This document shows, in pieces, positions 35,192 through 41,554 of a stretch of DNA of 64,000 bases (position 1 is the first letter of the stretch; every line of letters begins with the position of its first letter). The stretch is from Candidatus Tepidiaquacellales bacterium OLB4/UTCHB1. Lineage in GTDB: Bacteria; Bacteroidota; Ignavibacteria; Tepidaquicellales; Tepidaquicellaceae. Location: contig MWSW01000018.1 of NCBI GenBank assembly GCA_002050165.1, positions 179,374-243,373 of the forward strand, in the 5' to 3' direction. The notes under the pieces are model-generated. The model was given only the letters and a program-made list of their open reading frames with translations, was not told the DNA's origin and made no database searches. The position numbers were made by a program, and so were the translations under genes.

Positions 35192-38140
35192 ATGAAGTAC
35201 ATCGTTTATTTTTTGTTTCCATTTCTCATTATAATTGCCTTATTAATTTTCTTTAACTCTCCATTTGAAGCACCGGTTGAGCCTGAGAATCAATCAACCC
35301 AGCAAAAACCACCTAAACCAAAAAAGGGAACTCAGGGGAACACTGATAATCCTTTCGCCGCAGCTGAATACCGTTATCAGATGATATCCACAACCACGAA
35401 GACGAGGGATAAATTCATTGACTTGATTGGATACAGATTGGATGCTGTGGAATACACTAAAGAAAATTTAATGCCTGCCGGGACTGATTTTGGTGAATCA
35501 ATTTCGTGGGTCGCAAAAGGACCTGGGAATGTCGGCGGCAGGATAAGGTCTATTATTATTCATCCCACTGTAACTTCCCGGATACTCATTGGAGCGGTAA
35601 GTGGTGGTGTATGGAAAACCACTGATGGCGGCGCATCTTGGGATTCAAAATTAGATGCATTTGATCCGATTGCAATCGGGTCTATGGTAATTGACCCTAC
35701 TGACCCGGATATTGTTTATGCCGGAACAGGCGAAGGCTGGGGAAATGGTGACGCAGTTTACGGAGGAGGTATTTACAAATCAACAAATTTCGGAGACACA
35801 TGGACACTTTTGTCAAGCACTACATCTTCCTCTTTTAGAAATGTTTTAAAGATGGCTGCTGATGTTTCAGGAAATATCTATGCCGCAACCAAGAATGTTA
35901 CAACTAAACAAGGTGGCGGGGAATATACTTTAGCCGGTGGATTGTTTAAGTCAACGGATGACGGCGGAACCTGGTCGAAAATAAGTTCAACTGATTTCAG
36001 CCATAATTATTTTAATCCTACAGATGTACTTCCATATACAGCGTCGGAGATTCTTTATGCAGTAAACAATAATGGAGGAACTTATGGTGGAATATACAGA
36101 ACTACCGACGGAGGTACTACTTGGTCTAAAGTGACTTCCGGTTTGCCGTTATCTGGTTACCGTAGAATTACACTTGCGCAAGACCCATCCCATAATGATA
36201 CGGTTTACGCAGTTTTTGAATCTACCGATAAAACACCTGCAGGTGATGCAGGTTTAAAAGGAATTTACAAGTCAACCAATAGAGGTGTTAGCTGGAGTTC
36301 GGTTACTGATCCACCAAAAATTTCATCAACCGGAAGTTTGTCATATCTTGGAACACAAGGATGGTACGATAATATCATGGCGGTCGATCCTTTTGACCCG
36401 GATAACTTATTCGTTGGCGGAGTTGATATGATGAAATCTACAAATGGTGGTTCAAACTGGTCGCAGTTGACGTACTGGCATAGTTATTATGGTACACCTG
36501 TTGTCCATGCCGATCATCACTTTATTGCCTTTGATCCTGTAACATCAGGAACAGTTTATTCCGGCAACGACGGTGGAATCTACAAATCAACTAATTCGGG
36601 TGTAAACTGGACATCACTTAATACAGGTTTAGAGATAACGCAGTTTTACAGTGGAGCTATTTCCTCGACAGGGTCAACAGTGTACGGCGGGACACAGGAC
36701 AACGGTCATTTGAAGTTCACATCCGGAACGGACTGGGATGAAGTTTTCGGTGGTGATGGCGGATATTCAGCGGTTGACCAGACAGACGCTTCGGTTGCTT
36801 ATGAAGAATATGTGTACCTTGAGATTGCCAAAACGACGAATGGAGGCTCGAATTGGATTACCAGTATTACAGGTTTAACCGATGCAACCGATCCATCGAA
36901 ATGTCTGTTCATTGCTCCGTTTTCCATGAACCCGGATAATTCCGATGTTCTGGTTGCAGGATCCGATAACGTATGGATTACTTCCAACGGAGCAACAAGC
37001 TGGAATGCATCAAGTGGAACGTTATCATCCGGAGAATTTGTAAGTGCAGTTACTGTAGTGAAACCTACTGCAAATTTCATGGGATTTGCCGGGACTACGG
37101 ACGGTAAAATTTTTAAGTGTTCATCGCTTGACCCCGCAGTTGGAATTGACACCTGGACTGATATTTCACCTGTCGGCCATAATGGTGCCTGGGTAAGGAG
37201 AATTGTCACCAAACCATCAAACGACGATACGCTCATTGCCTGTTATTCAGGTTATAATATTACTCCGCCTCTCATGTCGAAGCACGTTTGGCTCTCCACG
37301 AACGAGGGATCATCGTGGACAGATATATCCGGTGACTTACCGAATGTTCCGGTTCACTCTGCGGTGTTTGATCCGGTGTTATCCTCTACATTTTATATCA
37401 GCACAGAAACCGGAGTTTACAGGACTACAAACGCAGGTTTAAACTGGACTACCTTTTCTTCAGGAATGCCTACATTTGTACCTGTTGATGAGCTGGTCAT
37501 TCAAAGCGGAACGATGAAACTTCTGGCTTTTACTCACGGCAGGAGCGTGTTTGAAACAGATTCTCCGTTGCCGGTGGATCTAATTGCTTTCAGTTCAAGC
37601 GTTGATGGCAATGATGTTTTACTTAACTGGACTACAGGTTGGGAACAAAACAACCTTAGATTTGATATTCAGCGAAGAAAATACGCGGAAGGTAAAGATT
37701 GGATTACCGTTGGAAGCGTTGAAGGGAGTGGTACTGTATTTGAACAACGGCAGTATAGTTTTAACGACCTGAACTTGCAAACCGGAAAATATGAATACCG
37801 GCTGATACAGATTGATAACAATGGCAATTCAAGCGCTGATCACGAGCTGCAAAATGTGGTGGAAATTGGTGTCCCGGAAAGTTATGCTTTATCTCAAAAC
37901 TATCCCAACCCATTCAACCCCGTTACAAAGATTGATTTTAGTTTACCTGTATCAGGTATAACAAAACTTCTCGTGTTTGATATTACAGGTAGGCTGGTCG
38001 CTACTATTGTTAATGAACAGCTTGAGCCGGGATTCTATTCTTATGCTTTTGATGCAAAGGGTATTTCTTCCGGTGTTTATTTCTACAGGATAGAATCGGG
38101 TAAATTCATTGAAGCCAAGCGTATGCTCTTAATAAAATAA
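35192..38140 (+). CDS. secreted Asp-box (BNR/sortilin-like) protein with type IX sorting domain
   Basis: A 982-residue exported protein. A hydrophobic N-terminal segment (about 5-24) is followed by a low-complexity Gln/Pro/Lys linker. Residues about 135-750 hold some eleven Asp-box repeats of the form (W/Y)KxTxxGxxW, for example WKTTDGGASW, YKSTNFGDTW and YRTTNAGLNW, typical of sialidase-like or VPS10-like beta-propellers. A fibronectin-like stretch (about 795-890) precedes the C-terminal type IX sorting domain with SQNYPNPFNPVTKI and GVYFYRI. Hydrolase activity is possible but no catalytic residues were identified. Strong Shine-Dalgarno upstream. Transcribed alone and ended by the hairpin at 38201. 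It should be surface-bound or released. Confidence 0.9.
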   Translation: MKYIVYFLFPFLIIIALLIFFNSPFEAPVEPENQSTQQKPPKPKKGTQGNTDNPFAAAEYRYQMISTTTKTRDKFIDLIGYRLDAVEYTKENLMPAGTDFGESISWVAKGPGNVGGRIRSIIIHPTVTSRILIGAVSGGVWKTTDGGASWDSKLDAFDPIAIGSMVIDPTDPDIVYAGTGEGWGNGDAVYGGGIYKSTNFGDTWTLLSSTTSSSFRNVLKMAADVSGNIYAATKNVTTKQGGGEYTLAGGLFKSTDDGGTWSKISSTDFSHNYFNPTDVLPYTASEILYAVNNNGGTYGGIYRTTDGGTTWSKVTSGLPLSGYRRITLAQDPSHNDTVYAVFESTDKTPAGDAGLKGIYKSTNRGVSWSSVTDPPKISSTGSLSYLGTQGWYDNIMAVDPFDPDNLFVGGVDMMKSTNGGSNWSQLTYWHSYYGTPVVHADHHFIAFDPVTSGTVYSGNDGGIYKSTNSGVNWTSLNTGLEITQFYSGAISSTGSTVYGGTQDNGHLKFTSGTDWDEVFGGDGGYSAVDQTDASVAYEEYVYLEIAKTTNGGSNWITSITGLTDATDPSKCLFIAPFSMNPDNSDVLVAGSDNVWITSNGATSWNASSGTLSSGEFVSAVTVVKPTANFMGFAGTTDGKIFKCSSLDPAVGIDTWTDISPVGHNGAWVRRIVTKPSNDDTLIACYSGYNITPPLMSKHVWLSTNEGSSWTDISGDLPNVPVHSAVFDPVLSSTFYISTETGVYRTTNAGLNWTTFSSGMPTFVPVDELVIQSGTMKLLAFTHGRSVFETDSPLPVDLIAFSSSVDGNDVLLNWTTGWEQNNLRFDIQRRKYAEGKDWITVGSVEGSGTVFEQRQYSFNDLNLQTGKYEYRLIQIDNNGNSSADHELQNVVEIGVPESYALSQNYPNPFNPVTKIDFSLPVSGITKLLVFDITGRLVATIVNEQLEPGFYSYAFDAKGISSGVYFYRIESGKFIEAKRMLLIK

Positions 38141-38200
38141 CCGGAGTTTAACTTAAGAAAATTTTATTGTAAGTTAAATCTGCAACCGGCTTAAAAATTA

Positions 38201-38233
38201 AAAAGGCAGTGAATATTATCACTGCCTTTTTTT
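38201..38233. terminator. strong rho-independent terminator
   Basis: AAAAGGCAGTGA (38201-38212) pairs perfectly with TCACTGCCTTTT (38219-38230) around the loop ATATTA and is followed by T's; on the other strand it is also flanked by U's. It can terminate both the 982-residue secreted-protein gene on + and the tRNA-Glu transcript on -. Confidence 0.9.
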
Positions 38234-38242
38234 AATTGTCAG

Positions 38243-38314
38243 CGGTCCATACGGGATTCGAACCCGTGTTTTCACTGTGAAAGAGTGACGACCTAACCCC
38301 TAGTCGAATGGACC
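38243..38314 (-). tRNA. tRNA-Glu (anticodon UUC)
   Basis: Read on the minus strand, acceptor GGTCCAT pairs with ATGGACC, the anticodon loop CTTTCAC gives TTC, and the T arm is ACGGG-TTCGAAT-CCCGT. All arms fold. The discriminator is G and CCA is not encoded. It is a single-gene unit between a terminator and its own promoter. Confidence 0.96.
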
Positions 38315-38328
38315 TTGATTAAGAACCA

Positions 38329-38359
38329 CAAATATAACGACGTATTAGGGAACATTCAA
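38329..38359 (-). promoter_or_regulatory. promoter of tRNA-Glu
   Basis: On the minus strand TTG (38359-38357) is followed by exactly 20 nt and TATATTTG (38336-38329), a full match to the Bacteroidota TAnnTTTG -7 element. The distance from the element to the tRNA 5' end is 14 nt, consistent with a start a few bases upstream of the mature tRNA. Confidence 0.6.
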
Positions 38360-38489
38360 TCTAATTAATGGGTGACTGGAAGACGCAATAGTAAGTAAGT
38401 TACCCTCAAATGATTAATCCATTTTTTTAATTCTCCGGAAAGTTTGCATCACCATTTTCTTTTCAATTTAATATACCGTTCAATCTGAG

Positions 38490-38497
38490 TATGTTTG
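38490..38497 (+). promoter_or_regulatory. possible -7 element upstream of the fumarylacetoacetase operon
   Basis: TATGTTTG fully matches TAnnTTTG and lies 33 nt upstream of the ATG at 38530. The position 20 nt further upstream reads TTT rather than TTG, so the match is incomplete. It is the only such element in the 215-nt gap after tRNA-Glu. Confidence 0.35.
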
Positions 38498-38529
38498 ATT
38501 AATTCCAAACTAAAACCCCGATTTATATA

Positions 38530-39498
38530 ATGACTCAAAGCTTAGAGATTTTTCTGAACGGTTTAATAGATTATGCAGGTTTATTCCCACCGGCGAAATT
38601 GCCGTTGGATGAGGCTTTCCCGAATTACGTTAAATACAAAAATGAGAAATATCAAAAGATCATCTCGAAATTTATCTGCCCTGCCGAAAAACTATCCGAA
38701 TTACAATCTCTACTGTATGAAATCCCTGAAAGTTTTGAAAGAGTTTATCCGGTTTCTGTATTAGGTAAAGGCGGATTGGACAAAGAGGATTTTTTTATGA
38801 ACCTTGAATATGATTTGAAAAACTGGCATACTTTTCAATCGAAGAATTCCACCGTAACAGAATCGAAAACATTTGAAGTAAAAATTCCTGAAGTATTGAT
38901 TGCTTCAGGAAACTCTGACACAATTTACGACCTGATTGAACCCTGTTCCGACTTTATCAGCCAGATTATCGGTGAAGACGTGATTATTGCTTTTGAAGTT
39001 ACGTTAATTGATGATTGGAAACACAACACAAGAAAATCAATTGAAGCAATTAAGAGGCACAATCTTAATTTCGATAATGTAATATTCAAACTCCGCACTG
39101 GTGGATTAACTGCCGAAGCTTTTCCGGCAACTGATCAGGTTGCATTTGTTATACACGAACTTCTCGACCGTAATATACCTATGAAATGCACTGCCGGGTT
39201 ACATCATCCGTTAAGGCATTTCAATAAATCTGTTAATATCAAAATGCACGGTTTCTTTAATATATTTTGTTGCGGAGTCATTGCTTACACACACAATATT
39301 TCACATCATGAAATGGTAAATTTACTTGAAGATGAAAATGCTACCCGATTTGAATTTTCAGGTGAATATTTTTCGTGGAATGGATATCGGGTTACACTCA
39401 ATGAAATTTCCGCCGGTAGGGAAGAGTTTTTATTATCCTTTGGGTCATGTTCTTTTAATGAACCTCTGGAAGATATGAAATCGATGGGTTTGCTTTAG
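38530..39498 (+). CDS. unrecognised protein encoded next to fumarylacetoacetase
   Basis: A 322-residue soluble protein that I cannot assign. It begins with LNGLIDYAGLFPPAKLPLDEAF and contains alternating strand-helix blocks that look like a TIM barrel: AFEVTLID, VIFKLRTGG, MKCTAGLHHPLRH, HGFFNIFCCGVIAY. The KLRTGG and CTAGLHHP motifs, with Lys, Arg, Cys and two His, could form a phosphate- or carboxylate-binding active site. The final third is poorly structured. It lies 160 nt upstream of fumarylacetoacetase on the same strand, suggesting a role in aromatic amino acid (homogentisate) breakdown or a related beta-diketone pathway. No signal peptide or membrane segment. Confidence 0.75.
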   Translation: MTQSLEIFLNGLIDYAGLFPPAKLPLDEAFPNYVKYKNEKYQKIISKFICPAEKLSELQSLLYEIPESFERVYPVSVLGKGGLDKEDFFMNLEYDLKNWHTFQSKNSTVTESKTFEVKIPEVLIASGNSDTIYDLIEPCSDFISQIIGEDVIIAFEVTLIDDWKHNTRKSIEAIKRHNLNFDNVIFKLRTGGLTAEAFPATDQVAFVIHELLDRNIPMKCTAGLHHPLRHFNKSVNIKMHGFFNIFCCGVIAYTHNISHHEMVNLLEDENATRFEFSGEYFSWNGYRVTLNEISAGREEFLLSFGSCSFNEPLEDMKSMGLL

Positions 39499-39658
39499 AA
39501 GGTTTAGGAATTGACAAGTCGTGAATTTAAAATTTGATATTTGAAATCGGGAAAAGAATTTATTTTACACGATGATTTGCTGAGGTTAAACTGGTATCGT
39601 CGTAAACGTTATAATGTTTTTGAAATATTGTCATTAAATACAAAAAATTATTTTGAAG

Positions 39659-40921
39659 ATGCAAGTGTCATTCATAAAAGTTTCAGCGGATTCACACTTT
39701 CCCATTCAAAATATTCCTTATGGAGTATTTTGCAGGAAGGTTGACGGGAAGGTTAGCATTGGTACCCGAATAGGCAATTACGTGCTCGATTTATCGATAT
39801 TGAGCGAGATGGGTTATTTTAATGATTTGGAATTCAATCGTACTAAACCGTTTGAGAATAAAACATTGAATAATTTCATGTCGCTCGGAAAAGATTGCTG
39901 GCATGAGGCGAGGATTGCGATACAGGATTTACTGTCAGAAGATAATCCCAAGCTTCGGGATAACCTTGAGGTCAGGGAGAAAGTATTGCTGGAAATTGAA
40001 AATGTTAGCTTGCGCATGCCTGTTGATATAGGTGATTACACTGATTTTTATTCATCGAGGCAACACGCAACAAATGTGGGAATAATGTTCCGTGGAAAAG
40101 AGAATGCATTAATGCCGAATTGGTTACATTTACCAGTTGCATATCATGGCAGGGCAAGTTCGGTTATTATGAGCGACACAGATATTCACAGACCTTGCGG
40201 ACAGGTTAAGGCAAACGACAACACTCAGCCCGAATTTCGTGCATCCGGACTTTTAGATTTCGAGCTTGAAGTGGGTTTTTTCATCGGAACGGGTAATGCA
40301 TTAGGAAATCCGATTCGGATAGAAGAAGCTGAAAACCATATTTTCGGTTTAGTGCTTGTGAATGATTGGAGCGCACGTGATATACAAAAATGGGAATACG
40401 TTCCGCTCGGACCGTTTCTCGCTAAAAATTTTGCAACTTCCATCTCACCGTGGATAGTTACACTAGAAGCATTGCAACCATTTGCCATGTCCGGAGTCTT
40501 TCAGGAACCGCAACCGTTAAGTTATCTCAATTCCGGAAGAAATAAAACTTATGATATTAAGCTTGAATTAGCGATTCAATCAGCCCGAATGGATTCACCG
40601 CAGGTGATTTGTAAATCAAACTTTTCTCATTTGTATTGGAGCATGGAACAGCAGCTTGCTCACCATACTGTTAACGGATGCAATATGAGACCCGGTGATT
40701 TATTAGCTTCCGGAACAATTTCAGGCGATAGCGATGATTCAAGAGGTTCGATGCTGGAACTTACATGGCGTGGAGATAATCCGATTAAATTATCTTCCGG
40801 TGAAGAGCGAAAATTTCTCGCTGACTTTGATACTGTGATTATTAACGGCTATTGTCAGGGAGATGGTTACAGGGTTGGGTTTGGTGAGTTAAAAAATAAA
40901 ATCTTACCTGCGAAACTATAA
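39659..40921 (+). CDS. fahA: fumarylacetoacetase
   Basis: A 420-residue fumarylacetoacetate hydrolase, normal for the full-length eukaryote-like family. The N-terminal SH3-like domain has IPYGVFC. The catalytic domain contains DYTDFYSSRQHATNVG with the metal and catalytic residues, LDFELEVGFFIG, VLVNDWSARDIQKWEYVPLGPF and the C-terminal GDLLASGTISG. It cleaves fumarylacetoacetate to fumarate and acetoacetate, the last step of tyrosine degradation. ATG at 39659 is chosen; the frame is open to a TTG at 39653. No homogentisate dioxygenase is in this window. Confidence 0.95.
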   Translation: MQVSFIKVSADSHFPIQNIPYGVFCRKVDGKVSIGTRIGNYVLDLSILSEMGYFNDLEFNRTKPFENKTLNNFMSLGKDCWHEARIAIQDLLSEDNPKLRDNLEVREKVLLEIENVSLRMPVDIGDYTDFYSSRQHATNVGIMFRGKENALMPNWLHLPVAYHGRASSVIMSDTDIHRPCGQVKANDNTQPEFRASGLLDFELEVGFFIGTGNALGNPIRIEEAENHIFGLVLVNDWSARDIQKWEYVPLGPFLAKNFATSISPWIVTLEALQPFAMSGVFQEPQPLSYLNSGRNKTYDIKLELAIQSARMDSPQVICKSNFSHLYWSMEQQLAHHTVNGCNMRPGDLLASGTISGDSDDSRGSMLELTWRGDNPIKLSSGEERKFLADFDTVIINGYCQGDGYRVGFGELKNKILPAKL

Positions 40922-40924
40922 TTT

Positions 40925-41554
40925 ATGTGTTCGAGATTTGAAAATAAAGAATCGGGTGAGTCAATTTTCAAAAGGTTGAAAAATAATTTTCATGGTGAGG
41001 TAATTTACGATATTGAAAACTGGGAAGAATTCCCATCAGAAAAAATTGCACCTACTGATAAAATAATTGCGGTTATGAGAAAAAATAACGCGTTGTTTAT
41101 AAAATCAACACAATGGGGGATTAAGTTTGATGATACAAAGAAATTTCCAGTTGTATTCAATTCGCGGTTGGAAACATTAAATTCAAAAAAGTTTTGGGGT
41201 ACACTTTTTAATAACAACAGATGCGTGATTCCTGCAACTGCTTTTTTCGAATGGGTTCAGACCAGTGAAGGGAAAGTTCCACAACGTATTCATTCAGATG
41301 ATGAATTGTTCTATATAGCCGGAATTAATTTCTTTAAAGATGAAATTGTCTATAGTTCAATGATAACAACCACTCCAAATGCTTTCATGAAAAATCTACA
41401 TAACCGGATGCCAATTTTGTTTAATGAAACCGACGCACTTGAATTCTTATTTGCAAGCGGTGAAGATGCGATGAACATTTGCAAGAAAGTTGTAAGTTTA
41501 AACCTCAGCAGCAATTCACATTCATTTGATCAATTTAATTTAAAGAAAACTTGA
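40925..41554 (+). CDS. SRAP/HMCES family abasic-site protein (YedK-like)
   Basis: A 209-residue SOS-response-associated peptidase family protein. The N-terminus is MCSRF, so removal of Met exposes Cys2, which forms a thiazolidine crosslink with abasic sites in single-stranded DNA. Other expected residues are the Asn in FNSRLETL, the Glu in ATAFFEW and the His in HNRMPILF. It shields abasic sites at replication forks. It starts three nt after fahA, with which it has no evident pathway link, and overlaps murA by four nt. Confidence 0.93.
   Translation: MCSRFENKESGESIFKRLKNNFHGEVIYDIENWEEFPSEKIAPTDKIIAVMRKNNALFIKSTQWGIKFDDTKKFPVVFNSRLETLNSKKFWGTLFNNNRCVIPATAFFEWVQTSEGKVPQRIHSDDELFYIAGINFFKDEIVYSSMITTTPNAFMKNLHNRMPILFNETDALEFLFASGEDAMNICKKVVSLNLSSNSHSFDQFNLKKT

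Follow-up and report, generated by a model that had tools for sequence, protein, structure and literature searches.

An uncatalogued protein family with a predicted aldolase-type barrel: a candidate glutathione-independent maleylacetoacetate isomerase of the homogentisate pathway

Introduction

The homogentisate pathway of tyrosine breakdown is composed of HPPD, HmgA, a maleylacetoacetate (MAA) isomerase and the fumarylacetoacetase FahA. The described enzyme of the isomerisation step is MaiA, or GST zeta (EC 5.2.1.2, TIGR01262), a protein of the GST fold. The MAA isomerase has been reviewed as glutathione-dependent, with a non-enzymatic, glutathione-dependent bypass as a possibility (PMC9338888), and only zeta GST is mentioned in a review of thiol transferases (PMC10950700). 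In a study of B. anthracis, no MAA isomerase gene could be identified and the fate of MAA remained unclear; there, Crawford 1976 is cited for a hydrolase (PMC4457819). The former review credits to Crawford 1976 a glutathione-independent Bacillus activity that yields maleate (PMC9338888); the two second-hand accounts of this work are in conflict, since it is a hydrolase in one (PMC4457819) and a glutathione-independent isomerase in the other (PMC9338888).

Two further enzymes are relevant for comparison. The mycothiol-dependent maleylpyruvate isomerase (MDMPI, PF11716) catalyses the cis-trans isomerisation of a related product of ring fission, in organisms that have no glutathione. DERA (deoC) is a class I Schiff-base aldolase, in which, for the E. 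coli enzyme, residues D102, K167 and K201 are catalytic and located on strands 4, 6 and 7, respectively.

Here, we describe gene Q, located immediately upstream of fahA, whose product we propose to be a glutathione-independent MAA isomerase; we lean towards this reading by a modest margin, the isomerase activity being inferred and unmeasured. The Q protein shares with MaiA the proposed reaction and the genomic place with hmgA and fahA, but it has no TIGR01262 or GST-domain match, it occurs where MaiA is missing, and its predicted barrel is of the aldolase type, in place of the GST fold. With DERA it shares the barrel fold, as predicted; a strand-6 lysine, a strand-7 lysine and a strand-4 acid are inferred, from strand order, to be counterparts of the DERA residues. 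It has no detectable sequence relation to DERA, an extra segment between strands 7 and 8, the invariant residues R189, HH225-226 and C307, and a homogentisate gene context. It also differs from MDMPI, in that it is proposed to need no small thiol and that neither Q nor its 80 closest relatives match PF11716. In the open-licence PMC literature that we have searched, no paper was recognised as dealing with the Q family: maleylacetoacetate and homogentisate are absent from the main text of a gap-filling paper (PMC9007349), and a term search of PMC12470001 gave no match.

Results

The locus of gene Q

The window, i.e. the whole stretch of DNA that was analysed (64,000 nucleotides), contains Q as an open reading frame with an ATG start and 322 codons for amino acids, carrying the stretches LIDYAGLFPPA, KLRTGG and CTAGLHHPLRH; the gene is single-copy in the window's own genome. 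The features of the locus are the following:

38490..38497, + strand: candidate Bacteroidota-type -7 element TATGTTTG (pattern TANNTTTG), 5' of the Q-fahA pair
38530..39498, + strand: gene Q (322 aa), proposed glutathione-independent maleylacetoacetate isomerase with a DERA-like barrel; based on ORF, family, model and fold
39653..40921, + strand: fahA, fumarylacetoacetase; listed start TTG, ATG at 39659; PF09298 + PF01557; TIGR01266

The frame at 39653-40921 (+ strand) is a true fumarylacetoacetase, matching both PF09298 and PF01557 and exceeding the TIGR01266 cut-off; its distance from Q is 154 bp, measured from the listed TTG start. The TAnnTTTG copy at 38490-38497, a candidate -7 promoter element of the Bacteroidota type, is the only one on the + strand across 37664-41122. 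Since this single copy precedes the pair and none is located between Q and fahA on the + strand, co-transcription of the two genes is plausible; a second promoter would fit into the 154-bp gap. The pattern is weak evidence alone, with 107 occurrences in the window against 86.5 +/- 8.8 expected.

A gene for an SRAP-family protein (PF02586; 40925-41554, + strand) starts 3 bp past fahA and overlaps the next ORF (41551), and it is possible that fahA, the SRAP gene and genes downstream of it are on one transcript. On the other side, a terminator-like hairpin that is readable on both strands (38200-38231), followed by a tRNA-Glu (TTC) gene on the minus strand (38242-38314), separates Q from the gene of a T9SS-type sorting-tail protein at 35192-38140.

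A large family without a catalogued model

No match to Q was found in Pfam, NCBIfam or the PDB sequences, while PHROGs gave chance-level matches only (E 0.19 and 0.58), and the family profiles gave only chance matches against the PDB sequences. A scan with the single Q protein found no relatives, but these were recovered when an alignment was used as the query: scanning one genome per species yielded at least 581 confirmed relatives, of which the best 80 were kept (L071-L150; the named loci below). The 81 family members, scanned singly against Pfam and NCBIfam, gave scattered weak matches, each in one or two members, and the GST family, the deoC family and PF11716 are absent among the matches of Q and its 80 relatives. 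The Q family has more than 500 members and no matching model in Pfam or NCBIfam.

Of the 296 genomes examined from the window's phylum (inferred to be Bacteroidota as GTDB defines it), 44 carry the gene; at least seven of the 80 named loci also belong to this phylum set, so that the two samples overlap. The best 80 relatives come from Ignavibacteria, Balneolia, Rhodothermia, Chloroflexi, Planctomycetes, Acidobacteria, Armatimonadetes, Calditrichia, Bacillota, Moorena (a cyanobacterium), Verrucomicrobia and Krumholzibacteriia, and also from Euryarchaeota/Poseidoniia. Q is carried by plasmids in 23 records (Streptomyces 11, Priestia 6, Rhodococcus 2, Pseudonocardia 2, Kovacikia 1, Nonomuraea 1), with no proteobacterial genus among them; a search of viral contigs for relatives found none. 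At one locus (L047:9214-11595, - strand) a 793-aa frame without a Pfam match ends in Q, being either a fusion or GC-rich read-through.

In the 81 aligned sequences, 25 residues are invariant: D14, A16, G17, P20, P21, L24, E116, E156, K187, R189, G191, G192, P199, K219, T221, A222, G223, L224, H225, H226, G241, F242, G305, C307 and P312. (An earlier alignment, A1, holds 31 of the 41 family proteins known at the time, ten having been omitted, mostly near-duplicates; A2 omits three degenerate rows.) Four aligned actinomycete forms, only 23-27% identical to Q, retain D14, PP20-21, E116, K187, RTGG, K219, TAGLH and the cysteine of G[S/T]CS. The conserved elements are located in the window as follows:

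38569..38595, + strand: motif DYAGLFPPA (residues 14-22), after strand 1; D14, A16, G17, P20 and P21 invariant
38875..38877, + strand: E116, strand 4, invariant; inferred by strand order to be the counterpart of E. coli DERA D102
38995..38997, + strand: E156, end of strand 5, invariant; from alignment and model
39088..39105, + strand: KLRTGG (residues 187-192), strand 6; K187 proposed as Schiff-base lysine, R189 proposed for carboxylate binding (roles inferred)
39184..39216, + strand: KCTAGLHHPLR (residues 219-229), strand 7 and loop; K219, H225 and H226 invariant (roles inferred)
39442..39453, + strand: GSCS (residues 305-308), after strand 8; C307 proposed as internal thiol nucleophile, present in 81/81 rows

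An earlier note on the locus, made from sequence alone, had described a 322-residue product of no recognisable family, singled out the three stretches named above as motif-like, and placed the gene immediately upstream of fahA, in the same direction and behind a single -7 element. All of this has held: the stretches belong to the best-conserved segments in a large family, the next ORF is confirmed as a fumarylacetoacetase, and the -7 element is single within the limits given above, weak as it is by itself.

Predicted fold and correspondence with DERA

An AF2 model built with the 81 sequences (pLDDT 97.4, pTM 0.94) is an alpha/beta barrel; its predicted strands are read as forming a barrel of eight, strands 7 and 8 being separated by an insertion. 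In a Foldseek search of the PDB, the 17 matches with E<=0.001 are without exception DERA or "aldolase" entries, with modest TM-scores by query (0.40-0.51), while BFVD gave no match to the model at the same threshold. The top 48 rows of the VIA comparison are DERA or Kemp eliminases on a DERA scaffold (Z 17.5-13.6), the best row having Z 17.5 and rmsd 3.3 over 240 residues; E. coli DERA (1jcl_B) has Z 17.2 (rmsd 3.3, 239 residues, 13% identity), and the first different fold is dihydroorotate dehydrogenase, at Z 12.9. Profile-profile comparison (hhalign) of the Q family with 28 DERA sequences showed no relation (probability 0.6%); since the sequence profiles fail to connect the two, the link between Q and DERA is based on the fold and the order of the strands.

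In E. coli DERA, D102, K167 and K201, located by counting, lie in EVDVVFP, FIKTSTG and GFKPAGG; in Q, the invariant residues E116, K187 and K219 lie in FEVKIP (strand 4), FKLRTGG (strand 6) and MKCTAGLHH (strand 7). The correspondence of E116/K187/K219 to D102/K167/K201 is inferred from strand order and motif, without superposition. In the model, C307 follows strand 8, on the side of the barrel where active sites lie; this cysteine is found in all 81 aligned sequences, is kept in the four actinomycete forms, and is lost in 6/6 degenerate copies of Q (see below).

No MaiA above cut-off in the searched genomes with Q

FahA exceeds its cut-off in 108 of the 296 phylum genomes, including all 44 that have Q (hypergeometric 5.5e-23, kinship uncorrected). 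The two upstream enzymes were looked for in 80 genomes, i.e. 77 with Q (four of which have a degenerate copy) and three with FahA but without Q: HPPD is matched in 75 of the 77 genomes with Q (above cut-off in 69), and HmgA, searched with a protein query, is matched in 74 of these 77 and in 77 of the 80 overall. The protein query was used because Bacillus-type HmgA scores far below the HmgA models; PF04209, tried as a probe, matched only five of the 80 genomes and was rejected.

MaiA (TIGR01262) was found in 0 of the 296 phylum genomes, and above cut-off in 0 of 50 other genomes with Q (covering 50 of the 80 loci), although Moorena has weak GST matches. As a control, the TIGR01262 model gave matches in three of 14 named genomes, above cut-off in one. 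In Acidobacteriota, no MaiA above cut-off was found in 149 genomes (30 have weaker GST-type matches), which leaves no mixture of MaiA and Q in which their exclusion could be tested. In the window's own genome, HPPD is encoded on contig 8 and HmgA on contig 16; Q and FahA are present as well, and MaiA gives no match. Since HPPD, HmgA and FahA are present and MaiA is absent, Q is the recurrent extra gene of a pathway that is missing one enzyme.

The gap is wider than the Q family: 64 of the 108 phylum genomes with FahA have neither MaiA nor Q, a weaker count, as the Q profile search lacked a positive control genome. Eight of 40 tested genomes with FahA and without Q are also without a strong match to c29, the gene discussed below, and thus a gene for the MAA step cannot be assumed in every genome.

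Gene neighbourhood

The most frequent neighbour of Q is fahA: in 67 of the 80 named loci it lies downstream at no more than 600 bp and in the same orientation; it is found at 657 bp in one more and at 3 kb in another, while the other eleven are without it (three at contig ends, eight without FahA in the retrieved DNA). For 40 loci from the window's phylum, the retrieved region includes FahA in 32 (adjacent in 29, about 3 kb off in three) and lacks it in eight. HppD, HmgA, FahA and Q occur together on one strand in 15 of 75 labelled loci (five of the 80 were not labelled), from Priestia, Halalkalibacter, Bacillus, Alteribacillus, Paenibacillus, Moorena, a Chloroflexi MAG, a Planctomycete, a Krumholzibacterium and Euryarchaeota. 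HppD was named above the NCBIfam cut-off; as the HmgA match has 65 bits, below the cut-off of 510, the name HmgA in these clusters rests on this sub-cut-off match together with the RefSeq annotation of the plasmid gene in the HmgA position as homogentisate 1,2-dioxygenase. In one genome (G179), Q is located beside HPPD and HmgA, with fahA elsewhere.

On plasmids, the gene order is hppD-Q-fahA-hisC-HmgA in Priestia, HmgA-type cupin-Q-fahA in Rhodococcus pNit, HmgA-Q-fahA-CoA transferase in Streptomyces NBC_01208, and HmgA-Q-fahA, flanked by transposase genes, in Pseudonocardia; the Streptomyces NBC_00727 plasmid has Q-fahA with a PF11716 gene nearby and no HmgA in the stretch examined. Q adjoins fahA in 5/5 annotated plasmid regions from Priestia and actinomycetes. 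In proteobacterial plasmid regions, an annotated maiA is located within 4 kb of fahA in six of 11 (not in the other five), for example as hmgA-fahA-maiA in Serratia and as fahA-maiA-VOC-CoA transferase in Acinetobacter. The exclusion of Q and maiA on plasmids rests on these small numbers.

A flavin-reductase-like gene complementary to Q

In genomes with fahA and without Q, a flavin-reductase-like gene (PF01613), referred to as c29, is often located 3' of fahA (seven of 20 regions fetched); its family is unrelated to Q. We searched for c29 in 80 of the 108 phylum genomes with FahA, counting a match as strong at E<=1e-70, a line that was set after the list had been viewed (it falls in a gap from 5.5e-74 to 2.4e-42). 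A strong c29 is present in one of 34 genomes with intact Q versus 38 of 46 without (Fisher 8.8e-14, kinship uncorrected), the latter comprising 32 of 40 genomes lacking Q and 6/6 with degenerate Q. It is within 1 kb of FahA in 18 of the 39 strong-match genomes and elsewhere in the other 21, so that the link of c29 itself to the MAA step is partial; all seven strong c29 genes of Q-holding genomes sit 2-20 bp from FahA, and in each of the six degenerate-Q genomes c29 is within 20 bp of it. Several c29 products have an extra C-terminal part (L157:5220-6119, - strand; also L154, L159, L160, L165, L167 and L168).

The degenerate copies are six full-length ORFs (L052, L054, L056, L057, L060 and L061, with Q at about 9.3-10.4 kb), 55-90% identical to one another, from a family, f30, that is inferred to be Balneolaceae. 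They retain E116, K187, K219, Y15 and PP20-21; in all six, C307 is changed to T or S, R189 to N, D, E or K, and most of TAGLHHP is lost, none having it complete. Their loci are largely syntenic with the Q-FahA loci of relatives, but FahA is gone; in the degenerate-Q genomes checked, it is located elsewhere, beside HmgA and c29. These copies may be decaying, or may have taken a new role.

The only intact-Q genome with a strong c29, G069, has no FahA at its Q locus. Within its genus (g73), G065 is without Q, while G069 keeps Q alone; the c29 genes of the two are only 64% identical, and that of G065 is 83-84% identical to the c29 of other genera. More than one replacement is suggested, since c29 diverges within g73 while that of G065 resembles those of other genera. 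In genus g84, five genomes lack both Q and a strong c29; in the two loci fetched (L151 and L152), FahA is at the old place and Q is gone, which is unexplained. We read the overall pattern as Q and c29 meeting one and the same need, the function of c29 being unknown, and c29 is a second candidate for the missing isomerase step.

Proposed function and mechanism

The family, the predicted fold, the gene linkage, the pathway context, the absence of MaiA and the complementarity with c29 are computed results; the substrate, the reaction and the residue roles of Q are inferred from them, with no activity, structure or mutant available. In the proposed route, HmgA would open homogentisate to 4-maleylacetoacetate, Q would turn this from cis to trans, giving fumarylacetoacetate without the use of glutathione, and FahA would cleave the latter to fumarate and acetoacetate. 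Q would then be a new enzyme for a known reaction, from an uncatalogued family with an aldolase fold, a view that we hold as the more probable one, the activity being unmeasured.

The earlier note had described the protein as barrel-like, with an alternating strand/helix pattern, and had suggested an enzyme near the fumarylacetoacetate step or acting on a related beta-diketone. The barrel has held in the structure prediction, and the pairing with fahA in the neighbourhood survey; homologues located mostly away from fahA, which would have refuted the suggestion, were looked for and not found. The suggested function is supported by the pathway gap, the activity being unmeasured, and the beta-diketone guess fits this gap because maleylacetoacetate is a beta-diketone acid.

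At the level of residues, we propose iminium formation combined with a C307 thiol that adds reversibly and thereby replaces glutathione from within the enzyme, because of the fold, the lysine and glutamate correspondence, and the conservation and loss of C307. K187 (strand 6, with K219 on strand 7) would form an iminium with the ketone in conjugation with the cis double bond; C307, situated at the barrel mouth, would then attack this activated bond, in the manner of glutathione in MaiA; rotation of the bond, departure of the thiol and hydrolysis of the Schiff base would follow, with R189, perhaps together with R229 and R297, holding the carboxylates. This chemistry is inferred and tentative, and we consider it rather more likely to need revision than to stand as drawn. 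To our knowledge, no Schiff-base cis-trans isomerase of a catabolic ring-fission product has been described earlier; Q would be the first.

In the genomes examined, the pathway is otherwise present and the isomerase is without a recognised gene, with Q as a specific candidate that is easy to assay. If the proposal is true, Q fills the isomerase gap in those Bacillota, Actinomycetota, Chloroflexi, Planctomycetes and marine archaea in which it occurs, hundreds of "hypothetical proteins" receive a name, tyrosine breakdown is completed in many phyla, and a reaction described as glutathione-dependent acquires a new chemistry (Schiff base and internal thiol). A bolder reading, which we consider less likely than not, is that at least three unrelated MAA isomerases exist, i.e. 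the GST-type MaiA with glutathione, the DERA-fold Q with a lysine Schiff base and a cysteine of its own, and the flavin-reductase-like c29, taking the place of Q in many Bacteroidota, and that an incoming c29 cassette in Balneolaceae led to the decay of Q.

Alternative explanations

Two further observations count against the isomerase reading itself: a gene of the PF11716 type (mycothiol maleylpyruvate isomerase) is located near Q on one Streptomyces plasmid, and thiol-dependent, non-enzymatic isomerisation is on record (PMC9338888).

Metal-dependent chemistry through D14, E116, E156, H225 and H226 is possible; the Schiff base is preferred because of the lysine pair and the fold.

Two alternatives are unlikely. 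Q could be a maleylacetoacetate hydrolase, which would convert MAA to maleate and acetoacetate and bypass the isomerisation. Crawford 1976 is cited for a maleate route in Bacillus (through a hydrolase in PMC4457819, through a glutathione-independent isomerase in PMC9338888), and a Schiff-base enzyme could cleave a beta-diketone; FahA would then be redundant, yet every Q-bearing genome of the phylum has FahA, the most frequent neighbour of Q. Q could also act on a side product or repair damage within the pathway (e.g. succinylacetoacetate, an adduct or a quinone form of homogentisate), with MAA isomerising non-enzymatically or through another enzyme. The 64 FahA-bearing phylum genomes without MaiA and Q speak for this, as does the flavin-reductase-like gene found where Q is missing, whose name suits a reductase better than an isomerase; against it, the minimal HmgA-Q-FahA sets leave only one step without an enzyme.

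That Q is a DERA-type aldolase for an unrelated metabolite, merely co-transcribed with fahA, is very unlikely: the DERA fold and the lysine pair would fit, but the gene stays linked to those of homogentisate breakdown in archaea and in diverse bacterial phyla, and a separate deoC match is present in 26 of 27 searched genomes with Q (25 above cut-off). A non-catalytic role, as a partner or regulator that stabilises FahA, is suggested by the frequent pairing of the two genes; we consider it the least likely, given the 25 invariant residues, many at the ends of barrel strands, and G179, with its fahA elsewhere.

Additional genes near Q

Two genes 5' of the Q-fahA pair on a Streptomyces plasmid (L187:4367-5023, + strand), a protein with the N-terminal domain of mycothiol maleylpyruvate isomerase (PF11716) is encoded. 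At L071:6449-9575 (+ strand), the Q-FahA pair is succeeded by genes for three proteins, one of 287 aa and unknown, one of the AIR-synthase type and one with a rhodanese domain (Pfam, for L071 only), and ORFs of similar length are located 3' of Q-FahA in L072 and L073 (some Ignavibacteria and Bacteroidetes MAGs).
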